A stretch of 64,000 nucleotides of DNA from NCBI GenBank assembly GCA_024689005.1, contig JAILDU010000043.1, positions 16,017 to 80,016 on the forward strand. The letters are read 5' to 3'. The DNA comes from Paludibacteraceae bacterium. Its GTDB lineage: Bacteria; Bacteroidota; Bacteroidia; Bacteroidales; Paludibacteraceae. Below, piece by piece: positions 1-19,108 of this stretch. The position numbers and the translations under genes are program-made. Under the pieces are notes generated by a model. That model searched no databases and had not been told where the DNA came from. It was given only the letters and a program-made list of their open reading frames with translations. Each line of letters starts with the position of its first letter. Positions within the stretch are counted from its first letter, which is position 1.

Positions 1-867
1 ACATTCTATGCCAACGATGCCGCGCCAGAACTAACACTGACTTTACCTTTGGTATTCCCAGAAGGGACAAATCCCGACTCTGTTCCCAAAACAGGAATAC
101 CCGTTTCTTTCTCAATCAGGAATACCGGTGGTACCTTCCGCGGAGATATATCTGCGCGTGTTTACAAAGGTTCTTTTGCTAAAGGTCAGTATGAGATAAT
201 GGATAGCGTTGTCATTCGCCGCAATCAAAGTCTCAGTTCTGCTTTGCAGCAGAAGTTTGATGCAGCTTTGGAATTAAATCAACAATACAAGATGAAGTTG
301 TGTTGGCGTGCAGGAGAAGGAGATAACTGGCATGATTTTGATGGTACATTGCCTTTCAAACTGTATGATCCCGATTACCACTTGTCGCTGACCGATACTA
401 TCCGCTTTGACCGCAACGATAGTGTACCACGTAGCAATGCTAATCTTAATTATTCGATTCGTAATACCGGTGCTCCCTTCGATGGCGAATTGCAGGTCTC
501 GTTCTATCAGACCTATTTCTCTCGCGGCAAGAGTGAGATACGGGAAGTATATATCGGTACCAATGATACGTTAACTGGAGTGTTCTCCGGACCTCTGGAG
601 CAGGAGGCAGGAATCTACGACGTAGTTCTCCGCTATCGAGACCAGGATGGCGATTGGCAGGATTTTATTGATATTAATGATAACAATATAGGTGCTATCG
701 TTGCGACGGTTTATGATGATACGGTGTCAACCGAAATTAATAATCGTCAACTATCAACTGTCAATAGTCAACTACTAATGCACCTCGGCGCGTATGACCT
801 TTATGTAGTCATCACCCGCGAGGGGAATAAACAGAAACACAAGAAAGTATTTATACCCATTCAATGA
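1..867 (+). CDS. C-terminal part of a secreted/surface protein with repeated Ig/CARDB-like modules (5' end outside window)
   Basis: Frame 1 is open from base 1; the listed TTG at 49 is not a convincing start. Repeated 'SIRNTG..F.G...V' modules; C-terminal 'GAYDLYVVITREGNKQKHKKVFIPIQ' resembles a T9SS-type tail. Confidence 0.7.
   Translation, partial: TFYANDAAPELTLTLPLVFPEGTNPDSVPKTGIPVSFSIRNTGGTFRGDISARVYKGSFAKGQYEIMDSVVIRRNQSLSSALQQKFDAALELNQQYKMKLCWRAGEGDNWHDFDGTLPFKLYDPDYHLSLTDTIRFDRNDSVPRSNANLNYSIRNTGAPFDGELQVSFYQTYFSRGKSEIREVYIGTNDTLTGVFSGPLEQEAGIYDVVLRYRDQDGDWQDFIDINDNNIGAIVATVYDDTVSTEINNRQLSTVNSQLLMHLGAYDLYVVITREGNKQKHKKVFIPIQ
742..776 (+). repeat. 7-bp tandem repeat inside CDS (AATCGTC AACTATC AACTGTC AATAGTC AACTACT)
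   Basis: Five consecutive 7-mers of form AAYNNTC read directly; encodes NRQLSTVNSQLL in the linker before the C-terminal tail. Confidence 0.85.
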
Positions 868-2465
868 AACATTATAAAAAATATTTATTAGTTGGTTTTT
901 TATGTTTGTCAGCATCTTTACATGCTGATGTCAAGCGTGAAGGTATTCATTTTCTGACAACCGAGGCTTCTTTGGGCTATTCGGCTTTGCTTAATCAGTC
1001 AACGTTAGGAACTTCTTCCGGTTTGGCCGGAGCCAAACTGCAAGTAGGCTATGAGTTCAACTATCGTAAGTTGCTGGTCCATGCTGGTATCGAGTTTGCT
1101 TCTATCAATGACCGAGCGCGAGTACAACCCTTCGTGTTGGAAACACCATACACTATCGGTTTGTCTGCGGGGCAGCAGATGATCGAGCATTTTGAGTTCC
1201 AGTCGTTCTCCGAGACCCAGTATATAGGTCAAATCAATATTCCTCTGCAAGTCGGTGCCTGGTTTGATCGCCGATACTATTTCTTGGCAGGTGTCCGCTT
1301 GGGTTTGCCGGTACTCCATAGCGCATCTACTAAGGCGCAAGTACGAACCTACCTGACCGATCCCACTTTGATCGGTGGTCTCGGTGAGCACGAAGAGGTT
1401 CCTACACATGATGCATATACGTCCGACCTGCGTTATTCCCATGCTTGGGCAACATCTCCTATTAACGCACAAGTATCTGCCGAGGTTGGTACAGTACTCA
1501 ACTCTTTTTTCGAGAAACCGCAGAAAGGTAGAAATTCATCTGCTGCGCGTGGCAAAAATGCGAAGAAACCTATCCTCTACCGGGTGGCTCTGTTCGCAGA
1601 CTACGGTGTGATGTCCTGTTGCAATAATTCAGCTCCTGCTGTTGCGTTAGCTTCAGTCTCCCAACCGCGCGAGATTACTATCAATGATTATTACCAAGCA
1701 TCACAAACATCCGTCAATTCATTATTGGTGGGGGCTAAGTTTGCTGTGTTGTTTCAACTCAATATGCCTAAACCTGCCAAGCCTCTGCCTTCTTATTTTG
1801 ATATCTATATCACCGATGCAGTGACAGCCAAATCCATACCTGCAAGCCTTAATATTCGCGATTTGGCTAAAAATAAATCTGTAGTCAAGGAGGCCAAGAA
1901 CGGTCACGTGCGTCATCGTATTAAGGATGGTGAATACTCAATTACTGCATCCAACGAGCAATATATTGCACAATCGCTCAGTGCATCTATGGCCGGAGAA
2001 GGTGTCATAGATACCATACGTTTTGCATTGCAACCTAAACCCAAACCGGTGGTCATAGATACCCCTATTGTTTCCATACCTATCAAGGTGGGTACCAAGG
2101 TCGTTTTGCATAATCTGTTCTTTGCAACCAACAGGACACAAATCTTACCTGAGTCCGAGGCTGCACTGGATGAGTTGTCCACGTTCATGAGCAGCAATGA
2201 GGGATTGGTTATTCGTATCACCGGCCACACGGATAATGTCGGTTCTGATCAAGCCAACCAAATTCTTTCAGAAGGTCGTGCCAAAGCAGTACGCGAGGAA
2301 CTTATCAAACGCGGTATAGCTGCTGAGCGCATTGAGGCAGAAGGCAAAGGTGAGAGCGAACCGGTTGACACGAATGATACAGAAGAAGGCCGTGCGCGCA
2401 ACCGTCGTGTAGAGTTCACTATCATCTCCACCGGCGGAGCGGATATTGAGCAAATCGCTGAATAA
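864..2465 (+). CDS. Outer-membrane beta-barrel protein with C-terminal OmpA peptidoglycan-binding domain
   Basis: Signal peptide; barrel-like N-terminal half; C-terminal 'LFFATNRTQILPES...ITGHTDNVGSDQANQILSEGRAKAVREELIKRGI...NRRVEF' is OmpA-like. ATGA overlap with upstream CDS. Confidence 0.9.
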   Translation: MKHYKKYLLVGFLCLSASLHADVKREGIHFLTTEASLGYSALLNQSTLGTSSGLAGAKLQVGYEFNYRKLLVHAGIEFASINDRARVQPFVLETPYTIGLSAGQQMIEHFEFQSFSETQYIGQINIPLQVGAWFDRRYYFLAGVRLGLPVLHSASTKAQVRTYLTDPTLIGGLGEHEEVPTHDAYTSDLRYSHAWATSPINAQVSAEVGTVLNSFFEKPQKGRNSSAARGKNAKKPILYRVALFADYGVMSCCNNSAPAVALASVSQPREITINDYYQASQTSVNSLLVGAKFAVLFQLNMPKPAKPLPSYFDIYITDAVTAKSIPASLNIRDLAKNKSVVKEAKNGHVRHRIKDGEYSITASNEQYIAQSLSASMAGEGVIDTIRFALQPKPKPVVIDTPIVSIPIKVGTKVVLHNLFFATNRTQILPESEAALDELSTFMSSNEGLVIRITGHTDNVGSDQANQILSEGRAKAVREELIKRGIAAERIEAEGKGESEPVDTNDTEEGRARNRRVEFTIISTGGADIEQIAE

Positions 2466-2481: not shown

Positions 2482-2528
2482 ATTTCAATCAGGTGCGCGG
2501 ATTGACAGTCTGCGCACCTGATTGAAAT
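2482..2528 (+). terminator. Long perfect hairpin downstream of OmpA-family gene
   Basis: 17-bp perfect stem ATTTCAATCAGGTGCGC / GCGCACCTGATTGAAAT, 13-nt loop. Confidence 0.75.
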
Positions 2529-2535
2529 AGTATAT

Positions 2536-2620
2536 TTGCAATCTCTGCTTGACAAAATTAAAAAAAATCGTTCTTTCTCCGTCAAAATGTTGGACGCAGA
2601 GATATTTTGTGCTAACTTTG
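2536..2620 (+). promoter_or_regulatory. 85-bp upstream element including TAnnTTTG promoter, duplicated at 12794-12878
   Basis: Gap-free alignment with 12794-12878, about 60/85 identical by hand count; ends in TAACTTTG. Confidence 0.7.
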
Positions 2621-2719
2621 CGGCCTATTTTTGTGTTTAATGAACATTTTGTGCTCTTTTTGGCAAAAATATAGCATTTGTGACAACTTGTAAGGTGTAA
2701 TTCTTAGGTATTAGTTAGT

Positions 2720-5700
2720 ATGAGAAAAAAATTGTATAGCATGTTGGCGGCTATAGTAGCTGCGACAATGAGTCTCAGTGCCCAGACTGTAGTGATTGAC
2801 GAAGGTTTTGAGAATGGAATCCAAGAAGATGTGTGGACCCAAGAGTTTGTCTCGGGTCATATGGCTTGGTCGGTAGAGAGTGTTGATGACAATCTTTCAT
2901 ATCCTGCTACTGTATTTCAGGGCACGCATCGTGCCTATCTTCGCAATACAACGGGGCAAACCCAAGGCTATGTTACCCGCCTGGTCAGCAAGGTGATGGA
3001 TCTTAGCCCGGATGCAATATATCGCCCGGAGTTGATTTTCTCATATGCAAATCCGCGCTGGGGAGCGTATCGTGATACACTCCGTGTTCTTTATAGAACT
3101 TCACAAACAGATAAATGGCAACTTATCAACGAGTATTCTAGGGGTACTACTAATTGGGAAAGAGTAGTTCTCCCTTTGCCAAGTGTGAGTTCCACTTGCC
3201 AAATTGCTTTTGAGGCATCAGAGAGTTTAGGTCGAGGTATCGTGTTGGATAGTGTTTTGCTGCGTTCTGAGCCGTTGTGCACTGTCCCGTATGATCTCGG
3301 AGTTGTTAACAAAGGAGCCGGTCGTGTAGAAGTCTATTGGATGGCTAGTTGGGATGCTTATTTTTTTGAGTTGATTGTAAGCAAAGAAAAAATCAATCCC
3401 AATGAGGTAGAATCTGTTGATCCGTCTGTGATTGCTTATCACGGGCAGGTCGATGGATGGACTTTTTCTCACGATCTTACATTGATTCCAGGCGAGACAT
3501 ACTACATGTACGTCCGCTCCTTGTGTGACCGAGAGATAAGCGCTTGGAGTAGTGAGACATCTGCGGATGGTCCGTTCCAATTCCGTGTCCAAACTACAGC
3601 GCAAGTTCCCTATAATTGCACATTTTCTATACCGAGTACAGCCGCTGACCAAGCGCACGAACCCGGTTGGAGTTGGGGAAATAATTTGGGAACAATTGAC
3701 CCATATGTAAATTCCAAGACAACCAACAAGGCAACACTTGCATGTTATTCTCCTGATTCTACATCTTGCCTTATATTTTCGGGTGCAGATGCTAATCCCG
3801 AAACAGCCATTCCATATGGATCGTATGCTTATGCCGCTACGCCGGCGATGGTTGATTCGTTGAATACAAATTTCTCACTCTCTCAGTGTCAGGTCCGTTT
3901 CTGGAGTACGGTATATACATATGCGGGGCGTCAGTATGGACGTAGTTTGATAGTGGGAGTCATGGACAATCCTGAGGATATCACTACCTTCGTCCCTATT
4001 GACACAGTTTATGTGTTGAACTCCAAGACATTTGTTGAGAACGTTGTTGATCTCTCTTCCTATCGTGGCAAAGGAGAATATGTGGGATTTAAGAGCCATT
4101 CTGATAAGCCAAACCTTATCTATATTGATAATGTAACGGTAGAGTATCGTCCTGCTGTGAACAAGGTTACGAAGATTTCCGTTAACCCGCGCGATACCTA
4201 TGCCGATATTACTTGGAAGGGCAATGCTTCCTCATATAATGTGCTGGTTACCAATACGGAGGTAGATCCGGCAAATCCTGCATCTACTGCCGTTGTCGCT
4301 AGAGCTAATGTAACAACTAACAATTACCATTGTGAAGCACTTGAGCCGGATCATACATGGAAAAAACCATACTATGTTTATGTCCAGGCCGTAGGAGCGG
4401 AATGGTCTAATAGATGTCCGTTTATTACGATTGCATCCAAACGTACATTGCCGTACAAGTTTGATTTTGAGCAAACTCCCGGTACAACAGGGATGAGTTT
4501 GTTTAGTAATAATTCCGTCTATCCTCAGACCACAACAACCAATTATTATAAGGGTAGAAAATGTTTGTATCTGAGTAAGGTTGCAGGCATGGATACTTGG
4601 GTCACATTGCCGATGGTTGATAATTTGGATAGTACACAAGTCAAATTTTATCTCAGCGGTTCTAACCAATATACACGTTCACATGCTATTGTGGGTGTAA
4701 TGACTAACCCAATGAATATCAATACATTTATCCCGGTAGCAGATTTCAAGTTGTCTGCTAGAGGTTATTCAATGTGCTACGCCAATTTCAAAAATTATTC
4801 CGGACCGAATGGAGTCATTGCTATTGTTTGGGGAGACGTGGCTGGCATGTCGCAACCTACGATGAATTATATAGACGAATTGAGTGTGGAGTCATTGCTT
4901 GATTGTATCCCCCCTGAGCACGTACAATTAGATGTGCTTCCTGATTCGATGACTATCCGTTGGGACGCTAGTCGGGCAGATAATTGGGATGTCGTGATAT
5001 CTCGCAATGCCTTGAGTGCTGACCAGAAGGAACTAGAATTGGCAGAGTTGTCCGCACTAAACTCTGTGGTATATGCCAATACACTGACATGGGACCAACC
5101 GACCCAGAATCCTACTTTTGGTTTCGGTGGACTTACTCCGCATACTAACTATTATTTCTACGTACGTACGGGTTGTTACGGTGAAACTACATGGTGGACC
5201 GAGTATCAATTCGAGACTCCATGTAGAGATGCTGCATTCCCATTTAGAGATGATTTTGATAGTTACGCTAATGGTGCTACAGAGATTGGATGTTGGAAAC
5301 TAAAGAACTATAAGGGCGTTGGCTATCCTAAAGTATTAAGCGTCAGTTCAAATAATCTGCTTAACTTGGTGTCTAGTGATTCCAAGGATCGTAGTCTTGC
5401 TGTCATGCCACCGGTCGATGGAGACCTTAGTGATATGATGCTTGTGTTCGAGACGCGTTCGAGAGAACTGCGAAGTACCAAGTCTGTAATTCATGTGGGC
5501 ACAATAGGTAATGTTGATGACCCCGATTCGTTTGTTCCGTTTGCTACTATAAACAACTCTGTTGGCGAAATCAATACTGTGAGACTATTCCTGTCGGACT
5601 ATAATTTAGTTCACAATCAGATTGCATTCTCATCCGGTGTTAAAGACAGAGAGGTAACCAGTGACGTAGTAATTGATAACGTAGAGTTGCGTGATGCTAA

Positions 5701-8700
5701 GTGTACCGAGGCATATGACATGCGTCAGACTGCATCAACAGCTCATTCCGTTGATTTTGATTGGAGTGGTAATGCTGTTAATAATCAGTGGAGAGTTATT
5801 GTGTTGAGGCTGCCTATGCGAAACGGAACCTACGACCCGCGTGAAGCAATTGTAGATGACTCGCTTGTTGTCGGCAATACGTTCCATGTCACAGGTCTGG
5901 ATCCTATTTGTTTCTATTATGTTTATGTGCGTCCTGATTGTGCAGCCGGATATAGTGTGCTTGAGGTGCAAACGGGATGTGAACTGCTCAACCCGAATAA
6001 ACCTAATAAAGAAACTTTTGAGTCTTACCAAAGCAGTTCTGTTGGTAACTCTGAATATCAGGCTTCATGCTGGACGGCTGATAAAGCACATGCGTTTATA
6101 TGCAGCAATAGACAATATGCCGCATCAGGAAGCAATGTATATAAGCTTTCCTCAACAAAGGAGATGATGCTTCCTTCATACATTGCTTCGCCGGCTATAG
6201 ACTGTCGGTCTATGTCGGAACTGACTGTAAGTTTCTCATACTCTGGAGATTCTTATTCGTGGATGATAATAGGTGTAATGAGTGACCCTTATGATCTGAG
6301 TTCTTTTGTTGCTTTAGATTCTATAGAGTGCCGGAATACCGTAGATACTCGAACAATATCCTTGAGCGAGTATGCAAGTCGTATCCCTTCCGATGCACGT
6401 CATTTCGCATGGAGAACGTCGTATCGTACTACCGCTTCTCTTTATATTGATGATGTGTCTATTGTCAGACTGACGTGCCCCTCTACCAACCCGAGATTCT
6501 CAAGGTTGACGCAGCATAGTGTGCGTGTCCACAGTGGCCTCTATGAAGATATATCATGGAAGTTGTTGGTAACCTCATTGCCATTGAATATTGATTCCCT
6601 TAATAGCGAGACATATGCCTTGCCTCCATCATTTGTTACTACTGTTGATAGCCGTTCTACTGAAGTAACGGGATTAGAGGCAGGAACGCGCTATTATGTC
6701 TATACATCAACTGATTGCGGATCAGAAATATCGCTATGGAACTCAGTTTCGTTTGTTACACCATGCACTGCGCAAACTCCTGATGCCTTAGGAACGATTA
6801 CTTTCTCTGAAGATCAAGGATTCGTCCCAGGAACGAAAGGTAATATGCAATGCTGGAGAGTGGGAAGCTCTTCGTCTGCTACGCCGGAGTATATACCGCA
6901 TATTGAGAAGTCGATTTCCATTATGCATAATGGTTACAACTATCTTAAGTTGCAAGATTATGTTCTTTCGTACTCTACTTTTAGCTATACGGGTGCGCAT
7001 GCAGTTATGCCCGAACTGAGTGTTGATTCCATTCGTCACTATCAGGTTAATTTCTGGGCTCGTGGTGACAAATCCATTGTTAACAATCGGATTATAGTGG
7101 GCGTAACCACTGATCCTGCGGATATGTCTACTTTTACTGCAGTAGATACGATTTCTTTGGATCAATCGGAATGGAGAACTTACCATGTTCTGCTTGACTC
7201 ATACCAAGGAGATTTCTTGGGTGTGCATGGTAAGTATATCACCTTCTATTCCAATTTCGGAATTAGCAATATAGCGTATATCTCCGAGGTTTCGGTTCAT
7301 CGGATACCTACTTGTATTGAGCCGTCTTCTTTCTCGGTGGACAACGTGGGTGAGAATACTGCAACCGTAAGTTGGACCGGCAATCAGAAGTCATATCGCT
7401 TATTAGTAGCAGATAGGGAATTATTAGAAGCAGAGAAACCGACCTATCATTATGTAGTTGATTCTCTGGTCTCCCATTCTAATCATGTGTCGATTGGTGG
7501 ATTGAAACTGGCAACTGACTACCATGTTTATGCGCAAGGTATCTGTCAGGATGGTGATAGCAGCGCAATATCTCTTCAGTTTGCCTCATTCCGTACAGAG
7601 TGTCCGCATACCATCGGCTACCCGTTGCCATATGTCGAAAAATTTGATACTTACGCAAATAACGAGCATAATCCGGGTTGTTGGCTATTCCTAAGCACCA
7701 ACACAAGTGAGTATGAGTATCCTAAAATTGAGCAGGTAAATGGTACAAAAGTCTTAGAATTGTATTCTGCCAATAGTGCCAGTTCGCTGGCAATGATGCC
7801 GTTAGTTAGTGGAACAATGCAAAATCAAATATTGTCTTTTGATGCGCGTCCGACGGCCGGTGTTTCTTCTAGATTGTATCTTGGCACAATCGCTGATTCA
7901 GGAGATCCTCGTTCTTTCGTAGTATTCGACTCTTTGACTCTTCCTGTCTCTAATGATTTCAAACATTATGAGATTGAATTGGCTGACTATAATTTGCCCA
8001 ACAGGCACATTGCTTTTACTTGCGGATTTGATATGAGCAAAAGCTCTTTCCTGTCCAATAATGCTTACTTAGACAATATCAAGTTGGATAAGATACCTAC
8101 TTGTCTGGCTCCGGCAATTAATGTGGCTGAGACGTCATACAATTCGATTAAGTTAAATATTGCTCCTGCTAACGAGCATCATCTATCGTGTGAGATAGTC
8201 TCAATCGTAGATTCTGTGTATGCTTCGATCAACGATATCTATTCCTATTTGGACACTGTACGTGGTACAGTTTTGACCGACAATGCTAATCCAATCATAT
8301 CGGGATTGCAACCGGCTACTCCTTACTATATATACGTGCGTGCGCTGTGCGAAGGAGGGGAAAGTTATAGTGCCTGGAGCAAAGAGCCGCTTATAGTATC
8401 AACGAAGTACTATTATCGCGATAGTTATTTCTTTGGATTCGAGAAGAGCGAGCCTTGGATTCGTAGTTCCTATTCGACGAGCGATAATTATTACATCCAT
8501 CCGGCGTTGGTAACTGGTCGTGATGCGTTCAATGTGACAGATTCGTATAATTATTACCCGTATAGCATTAGCAATAATGCCGGACATCTCTATTCTTATA
8601 CGAACGAAGGAGCATTGCTGATGCATTCATCACGCAATTACAATGGTGGTTACATCGTTTTCCCTGCTATTGAAGATGCACAAGATCGTTCCTTTGAGTT

Positions 8701-11700
8701 CAAGGCACGTCCGGCATCAATCAATGCAGAAACACACATGCCGGAAACTTCTGCTAATGCAATTTTGGAGATAGGTCTGATAGATAAAAATAAGGACTTT
8801 GATACCTACAAACTGCTTGCAACGATTAATCTAAGCAGGCTGGATGGCTCATCAGAGGCGACGCAGGAGAATGAGTATCTATTTGGTTCATATACATTGG
8901 ATCTGAATGCGGCTATTGTTGCGTCCAAGCAGATAGTGTTCCATGCTCCAAAGCAGCCGCAAGGTATCTCCGATATCTATATTGATGATGTGACATTAGG
9001 AACTTCAAAAGGTTATAGCCTTGTCTCGTTTACTCGCATCTTGGAAGGAAACGATAACGCAAAAATCGAGTGGGCGAATATCGGAGGGCCGTGGGACCTA
9101 TTCGTGATGGATGCTCATAATGATACGATAGCTCGTTTCAATAATCTATCTTCTACTTCGCAGGTTGTCGAAGGACTCATTCCTCATTCGGAATATACTG
9201 CAGTACTGAAGGCTGCTAATGTCCCGTCCGAATCTGGCTATATCACATCGGCAACCCGCGTATTCCAAACTACATGCCCTACGCAGGAGGCGAATGATGA
9301 TGGAGAGTTTGTTTGGAATTTCGATGATGCAAACGATTGGGTTACCGGTGACATACTTGAAGGAACTCCTTCTGACTCTCTCTATCTGCAACCGGCATGT
9401 TTTGCGGTGGTAACAACTAACGCGGCTCCCGCTAATGGATATCAGTGGTTGATTCAGCGCAAAGGCTATAATTACTATTCTGCCGCAGTACCGAGTCAGT
9501 CCTATTCTAACTATGAAGTAGGTCTTGACAATAGTAATGCTGTGCGTATTTTCTCCGACAAGAAACATCTTGGCTCATATCTGGTATTGCCAGAGATGAA
9601 GTGTGATTTCGATACGATGATGATTGAATTCTATGGTCGTTGTTTCGCTAACTACGATGAATCAGCTTCTGTGTCTAACCGAGGAAAGATTGTTGATGTA
9701 TCCTATTTGGGACCTCAGTATAGCCAATCACTTGTAGTGGGCACGTTGGCTAGTCCCAAAGATATAACCACATTAGAAGTGTTGGATACATTGTCCTATC
9801 GCTATACTGGTTTGAAGGAGGGAGACAACGTAAATGATGATCCGGCTGGCAAACATTACTGGGAAAAGATGCAATTGCCGCTGACGGGTGCAAAAGGCAA
9901 ATATATTGTGCTTTTCCAACCGGCAGAAGGTCTGTTCTTCGTGGACAATCTAAGTATTAAGCCGATTGGTAGCACATTGTTTGCTCCTACAGAGTTGCGA
10001 GTAGATGTTGCCGCTGCAACATCGGCTGAACTATCATGGCATGCACATCACCCTACTTTGTCTTCTGTTGTGGTTGTCCTTGATGCTACGGGTAGCAATG
10101 AGATTATTCGCGACACAGTGGTTGGCAATACCTATTCAGTAACCGGACTTAGCGGAGGAACGTCTTATCAATGTTATGTATATCAGACCGATGGAATACA
10201 TGACGGACAATCTTCTGCATCTCTATATTTTGCAACTGAATGCGTGGCGATTACGCCTGCTTACACTTGTGGCTTCGAACAGGAGAACGGATGGAGTTTG
10301 TTAAAAGATCAATTAGGACAAGTAGCAAAACAAACTCTATGTTGGACTTATGCTGATGCTGCAAATAATAACTGGAACGGTAGCTATGACGCAGCTAACG
10401 TGGAGAATGCTGGCGCGTATAGGTATAGTTATTCCGGTACATCTGCGGTATTCATGCATGGTGTGAAAGGAAGCAAGATCTCTTACCAGCCGTATATCGC
10501 TATGCCTGCAATGGACATTGCGGCTTACGATACGTTGCAAGTCTCCTTCTGGATGCGACCGGCAAATGTGAGTGCTTCGACCGGTAAAGTTGTAGAGTCA
10601 TTCACAGGTAGTAATTATGCCAAGTCGATTATCATTGGTACGATGACGGATCCAAGCGATGCTTCCACTTTTATGCCGATAGATACGGTTACCTACGACG
10701 GCCAATTGTCAACGGGCGATGTGGCTTCTGTTGAGAATAACTTCCTCTATCAGAAAATGAAGGTTGCATTAGTTGGGGCAACTGGTTCGTATGTGGCATT
10801 TATGACTTCGTTCCAAGAGAAAGAAAAATCTGCGTATAAAACGCACGACTGCATCTATTTGGATGACATCGCCTTTTCGCACATAAGCGAATGTGCAGAC
10901 CCGACCGATTTGACATTGGTTCAAGCCGGATCAACCTCTGCTACACTTCAATGGACAGGAAACGATCCGAATGCTGCATATCTGTTACAAGTCTCAACAG
11001 ACCCGTCATTTGTTCAACCGAATGCGTTTGTGTTTAATGATATAGTGCGTACGAATCAGTATACAGTTACCGGTTTGCAGAGTCTTACCGGTTACGCATG
11101 GCGCGTACAGAGTATCTGTAGTGGAAACAGAGGAGAAAGCTGGTTCTCTCGTAAATCAACATTCACTACTATACGTAGCCCGTATCACTTGGAGCAATTT
11201 GATGCTATTCCGTCTGATTGGCTATTCAGTAATGTCAGATGTGATTCTACTATAAATGGCGTAGCCATAGCCACTGGTGTAGATTCCCATGACTTCAGTC
11301 GTGCAACGAATAATTTTGGTTTGCAAAGTCCGCACTATGTTGCTAAATGTCATACTAACTCTTCCAACTGGTTGATATCTCCGGCTTTCTATATTTCCGA
11401 CAAGGACAGCGTACATTTGTCTCTTGACCTGGCCTTAACAGCATGTAATGCGGCCAATGTTCCTACAGCTTCGCCTGCTACAGAGGAAAACCTAAAGGAT
11501 GACTATCAGTTCCTTATTATTGTTTCCGAAGATGGGGGGTCAACGTGGAATGTAAAGAATATCATAGCGACATGGAAAGGTAAGCAGTTACTTAATTTAC
11601 CTGCTACCGGAACTAACCTTCGACTCAGCCTTGCTCGGTACGCAGGAAAGAGTGTTCGCTTTGGTTTCTACCGAGGAGCTAATTCGACGTCTACTACGGG

Positions 11701-12577
11701 AGTGGCTGTACATGTGGACAATTTCCGCTTGGCATATTTCAATAAAATTGCTGATCGTATATCTACTTGTATGTATGAGGATGTACAGGTGGGAGATATA
11801 TCACTCTCCGGTGATGAAATCAAGCCGGGTATCTATTCTTTCCCAACGACCTCTTTCGCAACGGACCAGGAAGCAAGAAATGGTGCATTTGATGTCGTCA
11901 ATGCTACAGAAATAGAAGTGTTTGAAGAAGCCCGTACGATAATGTATGATACGATCTGTCAAGGAGAGACCTACACGGATGCTAATTTCCAATGTATTAA
12001 TCAATCTAAGCCATATGATAGAAGGTTAACTTCCATTCATGGATGTGATAGTATAGTAACGCTGAATTTATATGTAAAGCCGCGTTCGTATGCAGAGGAG
12101 GAAACAGCACTCATCTGTCGTGGAGAGATCTTCGAATGGCATGGCCATCAGTATGATCGTGCAGGCGTGTACCGTGATACTGCGGTGTCTGTCATCGGGT
12201 GCGATAGCATAGAGACATTAATTCTCTCGTATATGGGAGCAGAAGATACTATATTTGATGCTACGCAGATTTTTGACAATGAACTTCCATTCACGTATAC
12301 TAATGTTTCGCATCCGTACATCATTGGGCAGGCTCCTATCTTTTATCCGGTCGGAACGCCTTATGGTGAATACAAGGACACTGTAATGGTGCAAGGAACG
12401 ACATGTACTGCTCCGTTGGTTCATACATTGACCATCATCAAGAGTGATGGTATAGAAGATGTCAACGCTGAGCGTAGCGGAGCTAGAAAGATTCTCTACC
12501 AAGACAATATGTACATCATCATTAACGATGAATGGTACAATGTCTCCGGTCAGATAGTATCCGACCCACGCAAATAG
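2720..12577 (+). CDS. Giant modular surface protein (3285 aa): about 11 jelly-roll/choice-of-anchor-J-like + FnIII-like modules, Cys-containing GCDS repeats, short C-terminal sorting-like tail
   Basis: Signal peptide 'MRKKLYSMLAAIVAATMSLSAQ'; repeated module starts (GFENG, FDFEQT, DDFDSY, ETFESY, EKFDTY, FGFEKS, CGFEQEN, LEQFDA); repeated 'YIDNV' and 'GL.P.T.Y..YV...C' signatures; tail 'KILYQDNMYIIINDEWYNVSGQIV'. Confidence 0.85.
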   Translation: MRKKLYSMLAAIVAATMSLSAQTVVIDEGFENGIQEDVWTQEFVSGHMAWSVESVDDNLSYPATVFQGTHRAYLRNTTGQTQGYVTRLVSKVMDLSPDAIYRPELIFSYANPRWGAYRDTLRVLYRTSQTDKWQLINEYSRGTTNWERVVLPLPSVSSTCQIAFEASESLGRGIVLDSVLLRSEPLCTVPYDLGVVNKGAGRVEVYWMASWDAYFFELIVSKEKINPNEVESVDPSVIAYHGQVDGWTFSHDLTLIPGETYYMYVRSLCDREISAWSSETSADGPFQFRVQTTAQVPYNCTFSIPSTAADQAHEPGWSWGNNLGTIDPYVNSKTTNKATLACYSPDSTSCLIFSGADANPETAIPYGSYAYAATPAMVDSLNTNFSLSQCQVRFWSTVYTYAGRQYGRSLIVGVMDNPEDITTFVPIDTVYVLNSKTFVENVVDLSSYRGKGEYVGFKSHSDKPNLIYIDNVTVEYRPAVNKVTKISVNPRDTYADITWKGNASSYNVLVTNTEVDPANPASTAVVARANVTTNNYHCEALEPDHTWKKPYYVYVQAVGAEWSNRCPFITIASKRTLPYKFDFEQTPGTTGMSLFSNNSVYPQTTTTNYYKGRKCLYLSKVAGMDTWVTLPMVDNLDSTQVKFYLSGSNQYTRSHAIVGVMTNPMNINTFIPVADFKLSARGYSMCYANFKNYSGPNGVIAIVWGDVAGMSQPTMNYIDELSVESLLDCIPPEHVQLDVLPDSMTIRWDASRADNWDVVISRNALSADQKELELAELSALNSVVYANTLTWDQPTQNPTFGFGGLTPHTNYYFYVRTGCYGETTWWTEYQFETPCRDAAFPFRDDFDSYANGATEIGCWKLKNYKGVGYPKVLSVSSNNLLNLVSSDSKDRSLAVMPPVDGDLSDMMLVFETRSRELRSTKSVIHVGTIGNVDDPDSFVPFATINNSVGEINTVRLFLSDYNLVHNQIAFSSGVKDREVTSDVVIDNVELRDAKCTEAYDMRQTASTAHSVDFDWSGNAVNNQWRVIVLRLPMRNGTYDPREAIVDDSLVVGNTFHVTGLDPICFYYVYVRPDCAAGYSVLEVQTGCELLNPNKPNKETFESYQSSSVGNSEYQASCWTADKAHAFICSNRQYAASGSNVYKLSSTKEMMLPSYIASPAIDCRSMSELTVSFSYSGDSYSWMIIGVMSDPYDLSSFVALDSIECRNTVDTRTISLSEYASRIPSDARHFAWRTSYRTTASLYIDDVSIVRLTCPSTNPRFSRLTQHSVRVHSGLYEDISWKLLVTSLPLNIDSLNSETYALPPSFVTTVDSRSTEVTGLEAGTRYYVYTSTDCGSEISLWNSVSFVTPCTAQTPDALGTITFSEDQGFVPGTKGNMQCWRVGSSSSATPEYIPHIEKSISIMHNGYNYLKLQDYVLSYSTFSYTGAHAVMPELSVDSIRHYQVNFWARGDKSIVNNRIIVGVTTDPADMSTFTAVDTISLDQSEWRTYHVLLDSYQGDFLGVHGKYITFYSNFGISNIAYISEVSVHRIPTCIEPSSFSVDNVGENTATVSWTGNQKSYRLLVADRELLEAEKPTYHYVVDSLVSHSNHVSIGGLKLATDYHVYAQGICQDGDSSAISLQFASFRTECPHTIGYPLPYVEKFDTYANNEHNPGCWLFLSTNTSEYEYPKIEQVNGTKVLELYSANSASSLAMMPLVSGTMQNQILSFDARPTAGVSSRLYLGTIADSGDPRSFVVFDSLTLPVSNDFKHYEIELADYNLPNRHIAFTCGFDMSKSSFLSNNAYLDNIKLDKIPTCLAPAINVAETSYNSIKLNIAPANEHHLSCEIVSIVDSVYASINDIYSYLDTVRGTVLTDNANPIISGLQPATPYYIYVRALCEGGESYSAWSKEPLIVSTKYYYRDSYFFGFEKSEPWIRSSYSTSDNYYIHPALVTGRDAFNVTDSYNYYPYSISNNAGHLYSYTNEGALLMHSSRNYNGGYIVFPAIEDAQDRSFEFKARPASINAETHMPETSANAILEIGLIDKNKDFDTYKLLATINLSRLDGSSEATQENEYLFGSYTLDLNAAIVASKQIVFHAPKQPQGISDIYIDDVTLGTSKGYSLVSFTRILEGNDNAKIEWANIGGPWDLFVMDAHNDTIARFNNLSSTSQVVEGLIPHSEYTAVLKAANVPSESGYITSATRVFQTTCPTQEANDDGEFVWNFDDANDWVTGDILEGTPSDSLYLQPACFAVVTTNAAPANGYQWLIQRKGYNYYSAAVPSQSYSNYEVGLDNSNAVRIFSDKKHLGSYLVLPEMKCDFDTMMIEFYGRCFANYDESASVSNRGKIVDVSYLGPQYSQSLVVGTLASPKDITTLEVLDTLSYRYTGLKEGDNVNDDPAGKHYWEKMQLPLTGAKGKYIVLFQPAEGLFFVDNLSIKPIGSTLFAPTELRVDVAAATSAELSWHAHHPTLSSVVVVLDATGSNEIIRDTVVGNTYSVTGLSGGTSYQCYVYQTDGIHDGQSSASLYFATECVAITPAYTCGFEQENGWSLLKDQLGQVAKQTLCWTYADAANNNWNGSYDAANVENAGAYRYSYSGTSAVFMHGVKGSKISYQPYIAMPAMDIAAYDTLQVSFWMRPANVSASTGKVVESFTGSNYAKSIIIGTMTDPSDASTFMPIDTVTYDGQLSTGDVASVENNFLYQKMKVALVGATGSYVAFMTSFQEKEKSAYKTHDCIYLDDIAFSHISECADPTDLTLVQAGSTSATLQWTGNDPNAAYLLQVSTDPSFVQPNAFVFNDIVRTNQYTVTGLQSLTGYAWRVQSICSGNRGESWFSRKSTFTTIRSPYHLEQFDAIPSDWLFSNVRCDSTINGVAIATGVDSHDFSRATNNFGLQSPHYVAKCHTNSSNWLISPAFYISDKDSVHLSLDLALTACNAANVPTASPATEENLKDDYQFLIIVSEDGGSTWNVKNIIATWKGKQLLNLPATGTNLRLSLARYAGKSVRFGFYRGANSTSTTGVAVHVDNFRLAYFNKIADRISTCMYEDVQVGDISLSGDEIKPGIYSFPTTSFATDQEARNGAFDVVNATEIEVFEEARTIMYDTICQGETYTDANFQCINQSKPYDRRLTSIHGCDSIVTLNLYVKPRSYAEEETALICRGEIFEWHGHQYDRAGVYRDTAVSVIGCDSIETLILSYMGAEDTIFDATQIFDNELPFTYTNVSHPYIIGQAPIFYPVGTPYGEYKDTVMVQGTTCTAPLVHTLTIIKSDGIEDVNAERSGARKILYQDNMYIIINDEWYNVSGQIVSDPRK

Positions 12578-12583
12578 CATTAA

Positions 12584-12623
12584 TAATCATCAAGGGCTAC
12601 CTTCGGGTGGCCCTTGATGGTTA
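12584..12623 (+). terminator. Rho-independent-like hairpin
   Basis: 18-bp stem TAATCATCAAGGGCTACC / GGTGGCCCTTGATGGTTA (two G-T pairs) with TTCG loop. Confidence 0.8.
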
Positions 12624-12724
12624 TGTTCCCGAGATGGTCGCGGTGCTATAAGTATGCGGTACCATATTAGTACTGATGCGATAAAATTAGACAAAAACCG
12701 AGAAAACATTTTCTCGTACATTGT

Positions 12725-12793
12725 CCCTTTGTCCATCTCCTGTCCCACGCCCCCGTAACCTATAACCCATTCCCCGTAACCTCTCACCTTCAA
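12725..12793 (+). repeat. Degenerate 7-bp-period repeat (CCGTAAC CTATAAC CCATTCC CCGTAAC CTCTCAC ...)
   Basis: 7-bp periodicity by eye; ends directly at the 85-bp upstream element. Confidence 0.55.
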
Positions 12794-12878
12794 TTGCAAT
12801 CTCTGTTTGTCAAAATCAAAGAAATTTACTCTTTGTTGCGCAAAATGTTGCCAGAACATAAAAAAAATGCTAACTTTG
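12794..12878 (+). promoter_or_regulatory. 85-bp upstream element including TAnnTTTG promoter (second copy)
   Basis: Aligned without gaps to 2536-2620; shares TTGCAATCTCTG, CAAAATGTTG and TGCTAACTTTGC.GCC. Confidence 0.7.
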
Positions 12879-13015: not shown

Positions 13016-16000
13016 ATGAGAACATTCACTCAAAAGTTATTATGTTCACTCGTGTTATTGCTTTGTTGCGTAAGTTTGCAGGTAAGGTCTGAAGAACTTA
13101 TTGTGGCAGATGGCGCTGCAACCAATACCAATTTGCCGATAAACGGCACGTGGGTAGATGCGGCAGGTACACGCAGTCAGTGCCTATATCCTAGTGATTC
13201 CTTGACGGACTTAGAAGGCGCAACGATTACTAAAATGACGTTCTATATAGACCCGGAGGACGCCAGTGGATGGGCTAATGCCATATTCCAAGTCAGCCTG
13301 GCAGAAAGTACAGAATCCGGACTTACTAAAAGTGAGTTTTTGGAGAACTTGACGTCGGTCTATTCTGGAGGACTGAGTGTGTCCCAGCCGACAATAGAAG
13401 TGGTATTTTCTTCGCCATATCTTTACTCTGGCGGAAACCTCGTAGTTGATTTCCAGGTACAAACAGCAGGTACGTGGAAAACTGTTAATTTCTATGGCGT
13501 TGATGATATTGGTTTTGTTGCTGGTCACTATTTTTTTAGTAATAACCATGACCTTAAACAGTTTCTTCCCAAAGTCAAATTTGATTATATTCCTGCTAGC
13601 GGACCTAAATGTGAAAGACCCTCCTCTCTTGATGTTATCGATCTGACTACATCAACTGCTTCACTCGTATGGGCTGGGGGTAGCGGAGAGTACAATGTTG
13701 AATATAAGGCTGCATCAGCCACTGACTGGACTTCTCTGCTTGCTAATTCGAGTGCTTTAACAACCTCCCTTAGCAACCTTGCTCCTGCTACTACATATCA
13801 GGCGCGTGTCCAGGCTGTCTGCGAAGAATCTACTAGCGGAAGAACATCCATCTCATTCACGACCCCATACGCTATCCCGTATGAGCAAAACTTCTTTGGA
13901 AATGCGATGCCTGCTGATTGGCTTACATACAAAGGTCTTCTTAGTGAAGTCCTTGCTGGTACAGCTTCATTATCCCGTGCATCTGACAATATCAAATGGA
14001 AATTCTCGTCTTCGGCTGCAGGAGAACTATCTCAACATGCATATTGCGAGATTATGGAAGATAATACTAAGGATTGGCTGGTACTGCCTGCTGTTCAGAT
14101 GGACTCAAATGTCCAACTGTCATTCTGGATGGCTTTGTCCAATAGTTCTGGTCTCCCGGTAACAGCAGGTTCTCAACCGGATGACAAGTTTGCAGTATTG
14201 CTTTCTTCGGATAACGGAGCTACATGGACGATACTACGTCAGTGGGATAACAGTGGTGCGTCACAGTATTCTTACGATAACATTAGTCCTAACGGAGAAG
14301 AAATATCCATTGATCTTAGTGCGTACAGTAGTGGATTGATCAAGTTGGCGTTCTATGGTGAATCTACAGTGAGTGGAGGTGGTGCCCGTCTTCATATAGA
14401 TAGTGTGCTTGTGGATAAGATCCCAACTTGCTTTAAGCCGACCGCTCTCGAAGCAAGTGCTATCTCGAAGAACTCTGTACAACTGAGTTGGGTAGCTAAT
14501 AGTGGTGAGACGGCATGGAAGATCCAGTATAAGAAATCTTCCGAAACCGCATGGCAGACTATTGATGTTACAGAGAATCCATATGTGCTTTCTGGGTTGG
14601 AAAGTTTGACCGATTACGATGTGCACGTTGCTGCTGTATGTGATGGCTCTGCTTCAGATGGAACAAGCAAGTATAGCCAGACCATTCATTTCAAGACGGT
14701 AGCTGGTGTGCCTTATACTGAGCCGTTCAGTGCATCATCTATGCCTGTCGATTGGTCTACGTATAGAGGATTGTTAAGCGAAATCATGAATAACGAAGCA
14801 ACGCTTAATTTGGTGGCTACCTCTGCTACTTGGAAAGTAGCGTCCGGCAATGGTGTATTCGCAGGGGAGACGCATCTACTTCTTTTGAATTCAGGTGCAG
14901 ACTCCAGAGCTTGGGCTGTTTCTCCGGAAATACAATTGGATGATAATGTTCAGCTCTCGTTTGACTTAGCCTTGACTGGCTCGAACAATATCTTGCAGCC
15001 GGTTGTTCCTGGTGAGCAGGATGATGACAAGTTTGTAGTGCTCATCAGTACGGATAATGGAGCAAACTGGGGTAAACTCAAGGAGTGGAATAATACCGAT
15101 TCAGAGAATTCGTACGATGCTATCAGTTGTACTTCAGAAGGTCAAGAGGAAGTATGCAATTTGTCGGCATATGCAGGTCAAAAAGTTAGAATCGCATTCT
15201 ATGGCGAATCAACTGTTAAGGGAGGAGATAGTTATATCCATATCGGCAATTTGCATGTTGATTACATTCCGGCATGTGAGAAGCCTCTTGGCTTGATTCT
15301 ATCCGACGTCACGAGTGCATCCGCTACGTTTGAGTGGAATGAAGCTCAGAGCGGTTCGGAACCATGGATCTTTGGTGTTGCTGCTAATCCTGCAGATGAT
15401 TTCTCACCCGAAGCCGCTGATTTTACTGGTAGTACTTCGGATACGTGGGCAGAGATAGATACTTTGAGAGAAAATACGGATTATATCTTCTTCATCCGTA
15501 GAAATTGTGGTGGCGAAATAGCTACACGTCGCTTCCATACCTCTCAAGCCCCGGCTAATTTGCCATATGCAGATGACTTCGAGAGTGGTAATAAGTGGGC
15601 ATTCAATTGTGGTGGAATGACCAACGCATGGGCATACGGTTCTGCTACCAACAATGGAGGTTCGCATGCATTGTATATTTCTAATGATGGTGGTGCTACT
15701 AACGCCTATACATTAGGAAGTGATAACACAGTCGTTTATGCAACCAAGTTATTTGCATTCGAAGATGGCACTTATACTTTCCAATACGATTGGAAAGCCA
15801 AAGGAGAAGGCTTATCAGATTATCTGCGCGTTGTCTTAGTCCCTGCTTCTGTAAATCTTTTTGCGGGTTCGACACTGCCATCAGGTCTGACAAATAGCGC
15901 AGTACCGGCTGGTTGGAAAGCATTGGACGGCGGCACTAAACTCAACTTGAGCAACAATGAGTGGAAGACTGTTAATTTGGAGGTAGAAGTTGCTGCAGGT

Positions 16001-17878
16001 GAATACAATGTGGTATTCGTATGGCGTAACGATGCTACTAGTGGTTCTCAAACTCCTGCTGCTATTGACAATTTCAGTATCACTCCGACCTTGTGCGCTA
16101 GACCTATAGCAGATAGCGTTGCTACGAATATATCAACTCATTCTATTTTGCTAAAGTGGAAACGTCAGGATAGCGATGCATGGTTGATCCAATACAAGAA
16201 GAGTGACGCGAATAGTTGGACTACACTTTCTGAGCCTATCCTTACGGATTCCTTCCGAGTAGAAGGTCTTGAGTCGGCTACTTCGTATGACTTCCGTATA
16301 GCTGCTTGGTGTGACGTGACAGATCCGGCTACTATCAGCGAATATAGCGCACCGTTTACTGCGCTCACCGCTTGTGAAGCCATTTCTTCTTTCCCGTATA
16401 GTGAGAATTTCGATGGTATTACTGTTACTCAAACTTCATCGCCGAGCAAGCGTGTATTGCCCCTATGTTGGAATTTTATTAATTCATCTATCAATAGTAG
16501 CAATAATGTTTACCCGACTATATTCAAATATTATGCCGGATATTATGCTTCGTCACCTAACTCGTTGCGTCTCCACTCTAATTATAGCAGTACGACCAAC
16601 AAGGATCCGCAAGACGAGTATGCTATACTCCCGGAGATGCTCGGCGTCAATGGATTGCAAATGACGTTCAAGGCACGTGCATATTCTACAGCAAACGCAT
16701 ATTCCGCTAAGTTTACGGTAGGAGTGATGACAGATCCGTCCGATACGGCTACATTCGTGGAGCTTGCTACCTTTGAACCTACTACTACTACCTTCCAGCC
16801 ATTTGAGGTGAAGTTTAATAGTTATAATGGTACAGGCAGATACATAGCCTTCAAGTTGGAGGCTGCGGATGCAAACAAATCCAACCATAGTGTGCTGATT
16901 GATGATATCGCAATTGACGAACTGCCATGCTATGAGGCTTCCGGTTTGGCTGTTTCTGACATCACATCCGCGGGTGCTACATTCTCTTGGAATAGCGAGG
17001 TTAACGGAGCTTGGAAATACGCAGTCGCATCAGCTTCTGATGCAGAGCCTGCAGAGGATGCGTTTATTGCTATCGATACCAATGCTGTTATTATTGATGC
17101 CTTGACAGACCTTAGCGACTATGTATTCTATTTGAGCCGTGTATGTAAGGATGGATTGAGTCAAAGTATCTCAGTCGCTTTCAGTACTACACAGCAGGTT
17201 GCAACTATTCCTTTCGCAGATGACTTTGAGGATGCCAATAGTTGGCTGTTTGTCAATGGTACATCTACCAATGCTTGGGCTTATGGACAAGCAACCGCTA
17301 ATGGTGGTTCGCACGCATTGTACATCTCTAATGATGGCGGAGTAAGCAACGCTTATACTGCTACTGAGGCGGCTATGGTATATGCTACCAAGTTGTTCTT
17401 CTTCGAGGAAGGCACCTATGCCTTCAGCTATGATTGGAAGGCTGAAGGACGAAATAACGAAGATGTTCCGGCAGACTACCTGCGCGTAGCGCTCGTTCCG
17501 GCAACGGCTACTTTCCCGGCAGGAATGAAACTTCCTTCTTTCAGTGGTACTAATCTGCCTAATGGTTGGATTGCTCTTGATGGAGGACACCAACTTAATC
17601 AAAGTGCAGAATGGCAAACCATCAGTATAGAAGATGTTGCTATCGAAGAAGGTACATACAAGATTCTTCTTGCATGGAGAAACGAATCGACAGATGGCGT
17701 AGCAAATACTCCGGCAGCAGTTGACAATTTCACTATCACAAAGAAATCTGTCGCTACCGGAATCAATAGCGCTGAGACTTCTGACAAACCGCTTAAGTTC
17801 ATCCGCAATCGTCAGGTCTACATCCTTGTCAATGGTGTTGTCTATGATACGATGGGACGCAAAGTGGTTGTGAAGTAA
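13016..17878 (+). CDS. Large modular surface protein (1620 aa): jelly-roll/choice-of-anchor-J-like + FnIII modules, short C-terminal sorting-like tail
   Basis: Signal peptide; repeated 'PYADDFE/PFADDFE...NGGSHALYISNDGG' and FnIII-like modules; tail 'KPLKFIRNRQVYILVNGVVYDTMGRKVVVK'. Confidence 0.85.
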   Translation: MRTFTQKLLCSLVLLLCCVSLQVRSEELIVADGAATNTNLPINGTWVDAAGTRSQCLYPSDSLTDLEGATITKMTFYIDPEDASGWANAIFQVSLAESTESGLTKSEFLENLTSVYSGGLSVSQPTIEVVFSSPYLYSGGNLVVDFQVQTAGTWKTVNFYGVDDIGFVAGHYFFSNNHDLKQFLPKVKFDYIPASGPKCERPSSLDVIDLTTSTASLVWAGGSGEYNVEYKAASATDWTSLLANSSALTTSLSNLAPATTYQARVQAVCEESTSGRTSISFTTPYAIPYEQNFFGNAMPADWLTYKGLLSEVLAGTASLSRASDNIKWKFSSSAAGELSQHAYCEIMEDNTKDWLVLPAVQMDSNVQLSFWMALSNSSGLPVTAGSQPDDKFAVLLSSDNGATWTILRQWDNSGASQYSYDNISPNGEEISIDLSAYSSGLIKLAFYGESTVSGGGARLHIDSVLVDKIPTCFKPTALEASAISKNSVQLSWVANSGETAWKIQYKKSSETAWQTIDVTENPYVLSGLESLTDYDVHVAAVCDGSASDGTSKYSQTIHFKTVAGVPYTEPFSASSMPVDWSTYRGLLSEIMNNEATLNLVATSATWKVASGNGVFAGETHLLLLNSGADSRAWAVSPEIQLDDNVQLSFDLALTGSNNILQPVVPGEQDDDKFVVLISTDNGANWGKLKEWNNTDSENSYDAISCTSEGQEEVCNLSAYAGQKVRIAFYGESTVKGGDSYIHIGNLHVDYIPACEKPLGLILSDVTSASATFEWNEAQSGSEPWIFGVAANPADDFSPEAADFTGSTSDTWAEIDTLRENTDYIFFIRRNCGGEIATRRFHTSQAPANLPYADDFESGNKWAFNCGGMTNAWAYGSATNNGGSHALYISNDGGATNAYTLGSDNTVVYATKLFAFEDGTYTFQYDWKAKGEGLSDYLRVVLVPASVNLFAGSTLPSGLTNSAVPAGWKALDGGTKLNLSNNEWKTVNLEVEVAAGEYNVVFVWRNDATSGSQTPAAIDNFSITPTLCARPIADSVATNISTHSILLKWKRQDSDAWLIQYKKSDANSWTTLSEPILTDSFRVEGLESATSYDFRIAAWCDVTDPATISEYSAPFTALTACEAISSFPYSENFDGITVTQTSSPSKRVLPLCWNFINSSINSSNNVYPTIFKYYAGYYASSPNSLRLHSNYSSTTNKDPQDEYAILPEMLGVNGLQMTFKARAYSTANAYSAKFTVGVMTDPSDTATFVELATFEPTTTTFQPFEVKFNSYNGTGRYIAFKLEAADANKSNHSVLIDDIAIDELPCYEASGLAVSDITSAGATFSWNSEVNGAWKYAVASASDAEPAEDAFIAIDTNAVIIDALTDLSDYVFYLSRVCKDGLSQSISVAFSTTQQVATIPFADDFEDANSWLFVNGTSTNAWAYGQATANGGSHALYISNDGGVSNAYTATEAAMVYATKLFFFEEGTYAFSYDWKAEGRNNEDVPADYLRVALVPATATFPAGMKLPSFSGTNLPNGWIALDGGHQLNQSAEWQTISIEDVAIEEGTYKILLAWRNESTDGVANTPAAVDNFTITKKSVATGINSAETSDKPLKFIRNRQVYILVNGVVYDTMGRKVVVK

Positions 17879-17918
17879 GCATCACTTATCGACATACGGC
17901 TTACCGCCGATTATACTC

Positions 17919-17945
17919 CAAAGGGCTGCCTCGTGCAGCCCTTTG
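17919..17945 (+). terminator. Rho-independent-like hairpin
   Basis: CAAAGGGCTGC CTCGT GCAGCCCTTTG. Confidence 0.8.
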
Positions 17946-17955
17946 AGCATTTTCC

Positions 17956-17979: not shown

Positions 17980-18086
17980 TTCCAATCCTAACCCGACATC
18001 CTATGTTCTTTTTCTTTCCTGAAAGTTATTTTTTGTAATGATTATTAAACAAAAACAATGAGAAAGTGCTAAAAATATGTCAATTA

Positions 18087-18118
18087 TTTGCACATCTCAA
18101 AAAAAAGCAGTACTTTTG
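18087..18118 (+). promoter_or_regulatory. Bacteroidetes-type promoter for the 18152-27882 gene group
   Basis: TTTGCACATCTC...TACTTTTG with 20-nt spacer; nearly identical to 53488-53519. Confidence 0.75.
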
Positions 18119-18151: not shown

Positions 18152-19108
18152 GTGAGAAGGTACGTTCTATTAATATGCATTATTGGGCTTAGTGTATCTG
18201 TCAGTGCCCATACCAGTCTCTCTCCGGAGACCCATCATTTTGTGTCCCTTCATGGAGATCTGGGCTTTTCTATGCTCCTTCATTCGATCGACAATCAGAG
18301 TCCTGCAAAAGGACTGAATCCGAATATCGGTGTCGATTATCGTCTCTTTCACAACAATTTCTTACTCTCCGTAGGTGTGGAGGGTATGTATGGATTGTAT
18401 GCCAACTCTCTGGAAGGAATAGAGGAAGTCATTCCGATGATGGATACCGAGGGTGACCTCTTCAATATGCATGTGTCTGTAAGCGCAGCGCGCGATCATG
18501 CGCACATGATTAACGCTAATGTACCATTATTGATAGGAGGTGAGTGGGGATGCTTCTATTTCCTTGTTGGACCCAAACTCTCTCTCAATCTCTATGGTGT
18601 CACTTCTTCCTCTGCGCAAGTTACTACGTATGGCGAATACGACCGTTATTACGACGATTTCTACGATATGCTCAACCACCAGTTTGAGACCAATCGCCCT
18701 ATGACCAGTGGTACGCTTCCGCTCAAGTGGAATATGAACGTTATCGCTCATCTCGAGGTCGGAGGACGTCTCGATGACTTCCCTAAGAGTTCGGGTTATT
18801 ACGCTAATCGAAACAAGGTGCGCGTTTATCTTGCCGGATATGTGGATTTCGGTGTCCTCAATCTGAAAACTGCCGGCAATGGAGAACCATTGTTCCAATA
18901 TCGCGAAACCGATCAGGGCTTGCAATTCTATATCCAACCGCTATTGGTAAGCAATCGTTCGGATAATGCCGTGATTCGCAATCTCAGTCTGGGCGCCAAA
19001 CTGACAGTCGCATTCCCGATGGCTGAGCATGGCAAGTCCTACAAGTACGACTCGCGTCGTGTCAAACTCAATTATCGTAAACGTGGCGGAACCCAAGCGC
19101 TGTATTAA
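18152..19108 (+). CDS. Outer-membrane beta-barrel protein (318 aa, GTG start)
   Basis: Signal peptide; alternating hydrophobic strands; layout resembles the barrel regions of the neighbouring OmpA fusions ('VYLAGYVDFGVLN...LSLGAKLTVAF'). Confidence 0.75.
   Translation: MRRYVLLICIIGLSVSVSAHTSLSPETHHFVSLHGDLGFSMLLHSIDNQSPAKGLNPNIGVDYRLFHNNFLLSVGVEGMYGLYANSLEGIEEVIPMMDTEGDLFNMHVSVSAARDHAHMINANVPLLIGGEWGCFYFLVGPKLSLNLYGVTSSSAQVTTYGEYDRYYDDFYDMLNHQFETNRPMTSGTLPLKWNMNVIAHLEVGGRLDDFPKSSGYYANRNKVRVYLAGYVDFGVLNLKTAGNGEPLFQYRETDQGLQFYIQPLLVSNRSDNAVIRNLSLGAKLTVAFPMAEHGKSYKYDSRRVKLNYRKRGGTQALY

Follow-up and report, generated by a model that had tools for sequence, protein, structure and literature searches.

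Two very large surface-protein genes, here called A and B, lie one after the other in the window that we analysed (the whole 64,000-nt stretch of contig), and a sequence-only reading had proposed that a gap-free 85-bp promoter element is duplicated in front of both, which raises the question of whether these genes share a regulator site or only a common type of promoter. The match itself held up with exact coordinates: positions 2536-2620 and 12794-12878 align without gaps at 60 of 85 positions, the runner-up 85-mers in the window reaching 44/85 and 42/85 against a background mean of 22 (sd 4.1). As had also been claimed, TTGCAATCTCTG, CAAAATGTTG and TGCTAACTTTGC are equally spaced in both copies and the leaders that follow them diverge; the likeness ends just upstream of the block as well. 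A genome-wide search with the pattern CAAAATGTTGN{15,21}TAACTTTGC gave matches at these two blocks only, and TTGCAATCTCTGNTTGNCAAAATNAA, when up to three mismatches were allowed, was found at two sites only, both of them in the blocks, in the 1.96-Mb Bacteroidales draft genome from which the window is derived. Two copies at up to three mismatches in the whole draft genome are not the many near-identical copies of a mobile or interspersed repeat.

The features of the locus are collected in Table 1. Strong terminator-like hairpins follow the upstream OmpA-family gene, gene A and gene B, and therefore A, B and the gene for a predicted outer-membrane beta-barrel downstream of them are probably separate transcription units. 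These hairpins, which end each upstream gene, were absent from the sequence-only reading. Beyond the barrel gene, a 606-aa open frame (window 19166-20986, minus strand) runs antisense to another OmpA-family gene (19157-21367) and is probably a by-product of composition.

Table 1. Positions of genes, terminator-like hairpins, promoters and operator copies in the window.
Feature	Position	Strand	Details
Upstream OmpA-family gene	864-2465		
Terminator-like hairpin after the upstream OmpA-family gene	2482-2528	+	22-bp stem, -35.1 kcal/mol, z -9.0
Operator of gene A, degenerate 24-bp palindrome	2534-2557	.	centre 44 bp upstream of -33 TTG; 22.6 bits, best 24-mer of the window; conserved in relatives
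Housekeeping (sigma-ABfr type) promoter of gene A	2590-2620	+	TTG 2590-2592, TAACTTTG 2613-2620
Gene A, 3285-aa choice-of-anchor-J / fn3 / MAM surface protein	2720-12577	+	Pfam and NCBIfam
Terminator-like hairpin after gene A	12583-12624	+	-32.4 kcal/mol, z -9.0
Operator of gene B	12792-12815	.	centre 44 bp upstream of -33 TTG; 14.9 bits, third-best 24-mer of the window; near-identical in G104
Housekeeping promoter of gene B	12848-12878	+	TTG 12848-12850, TAACTTTG 12871-12878
Gene B, 1620-aa choice-of-anchor-J / fn3 surface protein	13016-17878	+	Pfam and NCBIfam
Terminator-like hairpin after gene B	17916-17947	+	-26.4 kcal/mol for an 82-nt stretch, z -4.4
Third operator, TTTTGTAATGATTATTAAACAAAA	18031-18054	.	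centre 45 bp upstream of -33 TTG; 16.6 bits, second-best 24-mer; full-length R1 match
Housekeeping promoter of the barrel gene	18088-18118	+	TTG-N20-TACTTTTG
318-aa predicted outer-membrane beta-barrel gene	18152-19108	+	weak OMP_b-brl_2 match, below Pfam's own cut-off

The block divides into an ordinary Bacteroidetes housekeeping promoter, its downstream half, and a 24-bp palindrome in degenerate form, its upstream half. Promoters of the sigma-ABfr housekeeping type have TTTG at -33 and TAnnTTTG at -7 as their consensus (PMC7366714), and the A, B and barrel promoters all possess a TAnnTTTG -7 box and a TTG-containing -33 element spaced by about 20 bp. In each block the last 31 bp agree with this type as known from Bacteroides (PMC7366714) and Flavobacterium (PMC9723704), whereas the known system has no palindrome 44 bp upstream. 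This half consists of TTG-N20-TAnnTTTG and A/T tracts, the former of which precedes nearly all A and B orthologs examined; because the same promoter and tracts are also found before many unrelated genes of the same genome, the -33/-7 half carries no specific signal.

The upstream half was characterised by comparison with relatives, the closest one found being G104 (labelled as a Paludibacteraceae MAG) and the others rumen MAGs. The A-B loci were located through the N-terminus of gene A, the upstream OmpA gene having given mostly non-syntenic places. Orthologs of gene A are present in about 40 genomes of the same genus, with 50-61% identity over the N-terminal 827 aa (93% in G104), and the tandem A-B order is retained in about 25. 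When the promoters are aligned on the -33 TTG, an imperfect palindrome appears at a constant distance from it, TTGTAAA-N6-TTTACAA in the A orthologs and TTTTGCAAACT...TTTGCAAAA in the B orthologs, and in other genomes this register assigns it to 33 A promoters and 17 B promoters. Many of these promoters are orthologous and not independent, so that common descent accounts for part of the constant distance. The site is absent at B in G093, G100, G147, G184 and G199. A matrix built from the A promoters of other genomes, with B promoters left out of its training set, found the palindrome at -56/-57 from the TTG in both A and B of the source genome and in the B promoters of most relatives.

Within the window, the palindrome was scored with a matrix trained exclusively on other genomes. 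The three best 24-mers are the operators of A, of the barrel gene and of B (Table 1), followed by one of 9.1 bits, and ten other core promoter matches in the window have palindrome scores of 2.3 bits or less. The third and more diverged operator-promoter copy (18031-18118), located before the gene at 18152, had not been mentioned in the sequence-only reading. The operator arms are TTGCAA / TTGNCAAAA. Lying upstream of the promoter, the palindrome does not fold as RNA (z -0.07), and an Rfam scan of the window returned one tRNA only, with no riboswitch or structured leader.

The genus-wide form of the palindrome is TTTTGYAAASTNNASTTTRCAAAA, with the half-site TTTTGYAAAST, and with up to three mismatches it was found in 163 of 178 genomes of the genus, many of them incomplete drafts, at 0-15 sites per genome, the reversed control being almost always 0. 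It is thus an inverted repeat conserved across species at promoters and above chance, as is expected of a regulon site. Five consensus-type sites, including one at EF-G2, occur in the source genome, where the A and B copies are degenerate and both differ from the consensus at more than three positions. A regulator site upstream of the -33 region, as first proposed, is strongly supported by this comparative evidence as a predicted binding site, its fixed position recurring in dozens of genomes and being recovered by a matrix blind to the source genome, but the proposal does not hold for the unspecific -33/-7 half. Nothing matching this palindrome was found in a search of the literature.

Could the upstream likeness be no more than the trace of a recent A/B duplication or gene conversion behind a shared housekeeping promoter, with no regulatory meaning? 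In the source lineage the A and B promoters agree at 59 of 85 positions with registers matched, against 46.4 +/- 3.9 predicted from column frequencies, and the source genome has no further copies of the TTGCAATCTCTG type. The excess similarity lies in the palindrome and spacer, with none in the core, and G104, the nearest relative, has the same version of B as the source genome; gene conversion or joint drift of the A and B sites may therefore have added to the similarity. Such events nevertheless leave the conservation unexplained: the palindrome columns are kept at the same position across relatives, and in nearly all genomes the consensus is found ahead of a variety of unrelated genes, the control being near zero. 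An explanation by duplication or conversion only is already largely refuted, and we give it very little credence. That the block is a private duplication was first suggested by 85-mer-like patterns matching two copies, and was abandoned when relatives revealed the palindrome as the conserved core; pattern matches in G024 and G049 were also set aside as looking like chance, since they have no canonical promoter at the right place downstream. The idea of a duplicated promoter element hence stands insofar as A and B are here more alike than the family average, but the operator is one repeated across a regulon.

The extent of this regulon was surveyed with a further model, R1, which was built from 26 promoters and whose E-values are rough. 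R1 alone is not specific, generic promoters scoring 28-40 bits through their -33/-7 elements and A/T tracts, and for this reason the palindrome was scored by itself. A third strong full-length R1 match in the source genome, outside the training set, lies upstream of another barrel gene on contig C102, and strong new matches in relatives precede choice-of-anchor-J proteins, barrel genes, a glutathione peroxidase and a SusC-like gene. Relatives of the barrel protein are encoded downstream of a site in G175, G066, G134, G149, G065, G107 and G000 (contig C102), and genes after consensus sites include pckA, gapA, TypA, EF-G2, guanine deaminase, a SulP transporter, a TetR regulator and secreted proteins. 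The element, said at first to be tied to the two largest surface genes, is indeed present at both, but it also precedes a third unit of the window as well as metabolism, translation and redox genes of relatives. The occurrence of the site across almost the whole genus points to one putative regulator that would control metabolic genes too. Two glutathione peroxidase promoters from different species, L262 (G061) and L263 (G110), are identical over the whole printed stretch, which indicates recent transfer or contamination. Separately, L255 and L256, on different contigs of G029, are near-identical operator-promoter copies with the same short ORF start (MVLDLRLSKD...), possibly belonging to a mobile or repeated element.

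For sites picked regardless of promoters, the distances from operator centre to TTG cluster at 23-24, 33-34, 44-46, 54-55 and 65 bp, and a 10.5-bp phase is evident (R = 0.63, Rayleigh p ~6e-6, n = 30 with repeated gene families merged), the families having been grouped manually; four sites, at 37 bp, do not follow this phase. With the -7 box taken as covering -12 to -5 (PMC9723704), the operator centre at A and B would be near -79. The positions upstream of the -33 element are thus helically phased. At class-I activator promoters of the E. coli CRP type the operators are centred upstream of the -33/-35 element at distances in phase with the helix, and the promoters studied here resemble them in this respect, although a phase offset of about 3 bp and a different, Bacteroidetes promoter set them apart. 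Because phased upstream positions are the geometry of class-I activators, activation is the favoured inference for the operator at A and B.

The best explanation overall, to which we assign a probability of roughly 70%, is a shared class-I-type operator that would place A, B, the barrel gene and metabolic genes in one regulon. Under this explanation the three transcription units would each start at a sigma-ABfr-type promoter, with a palindromic operator copy 44-45 bp upstream of each -33 TTG, at about -79 from the presumed transcription start; a dimeric DNA-binding protein would most likely bind the operator and activate from one helical face in class-I style, so that genes for central metabolism, translation and redox functions would share a regulon with the giant surface proteins and the barrel protein that partners them. 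Computation shows the operator copies, their constant placement, conservation and helical phasing and the separate terminators; protein binding, the sign of regulation at A and B, co-expression and the action of a single regulator are what we infer.

A second class of sites is located 49-50 bp downstream of the TTG, near +14, at every EF-G2 gene seen and before several secreted proteins (L294, L302, L323, L326, L336, L342 and other loci), which suggests repression at those genes, EF-G2 included. Since this class sits in a repressor-like position, the putative regulator may have both activating and repressing effects. The same class, lying where a repressor would block, fits an operator for a repressor such as a TetR- or MarR-type protein acting from upstream or by looping. 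The length of the palindrome would be appropriate for a TetR-type dimer; in most close relatives the promoter of a candidate TetR regulator gene, which is single-copy (154/178 genomes), itself contains the site, and a MarR gene adjoins a site-carrying gpx gene. We nevertheless regard a repressor as rather unlikely: the sites at the A, B, barrel, gpx, pckA and TetR promoters lie 23-65 bp upstream of -33 and are helix-phased, an arrangement unnecessary for a simple repressor, and in the TetR promoters of close relatives, too, the site takes an activator-like position upstream of -33, while the source genome's own copy lacks the consensus form. TetR promoters on G000 contig C82 (L375) and at L351, L355, L362 and L366 share another word, approximately TTTTGCNACATGGAAACTACAAAA, about 34 bp upstream of the TTG, which may be another operator.

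As to which protein would act in the class-I manner, a Cur/BT4338-like CRP-family regulator of carbon limitation with lineage-altered DNA specificity would be compatible with the best explanation. The Cur regulon of Bacteroides likewise has a palindromic operator upstream of sigma-A promoters and overlapping targets (EF-G2, sugar and central metabolism); here the site is carried by pckA, gapA and SusC genes and also by EF-G2 (fusA2), which of all Cur targets in Bacteroides is the strongest (PMC6989115), and phased class-I-like positions are typical of CRP. The Cur consensus wwwTATGTTnTAnAACATAwww (PMC6989115, PMC3878776) has a conserved G 5 bases from the centre, as opposed to 8 here, so that half-site sequence and spacing both differ, and the EF-G2 site here lies downstream of the promoter in a repressor-like position, whereas Cur activates fusA2; giant surface proteins and barrels are, moreover, the conspicuous targets here. 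Comparison by eye gave no agreement of TTTTGYAAAST with the known Cur/CRP motif in sequence or in distance from the centre, and a Rex-type site (TTGTGAAW4TTCACAA in the literature) was rejected on half-site sequence and spacing. A Cur-like protein consequently appears improbable to us.

In conclusion, we put forward tentatively, with the odds somewhat against it, that a previously undescribed global regulator of Paludibacteraceae, distinct from Cur and recognising a 24-bp operator, may link giant surface proteins to central carbon metabolism, translation (EF-G2, TypA) and redox defence, activating from phased upstream sites and repressing near +14. The operator itself is of a familiar type and the surprise is moderate. 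We know of no control described for the giant surface proteins of uncultured rumen Bacteroidales, and to our knowledge little has been established on the rules of activator geometry at Bacteroidetes promoters. An operator with fixed positions makes the regulon predictable from sequence in about 160 genomes and would provide a DNA bait for finding the regulator, and an undescribed global regulator, if the proposal is true, would contribute to a comparative view of how class-I activators work at the sigma-ABfr promoters of Bacteroidetes.
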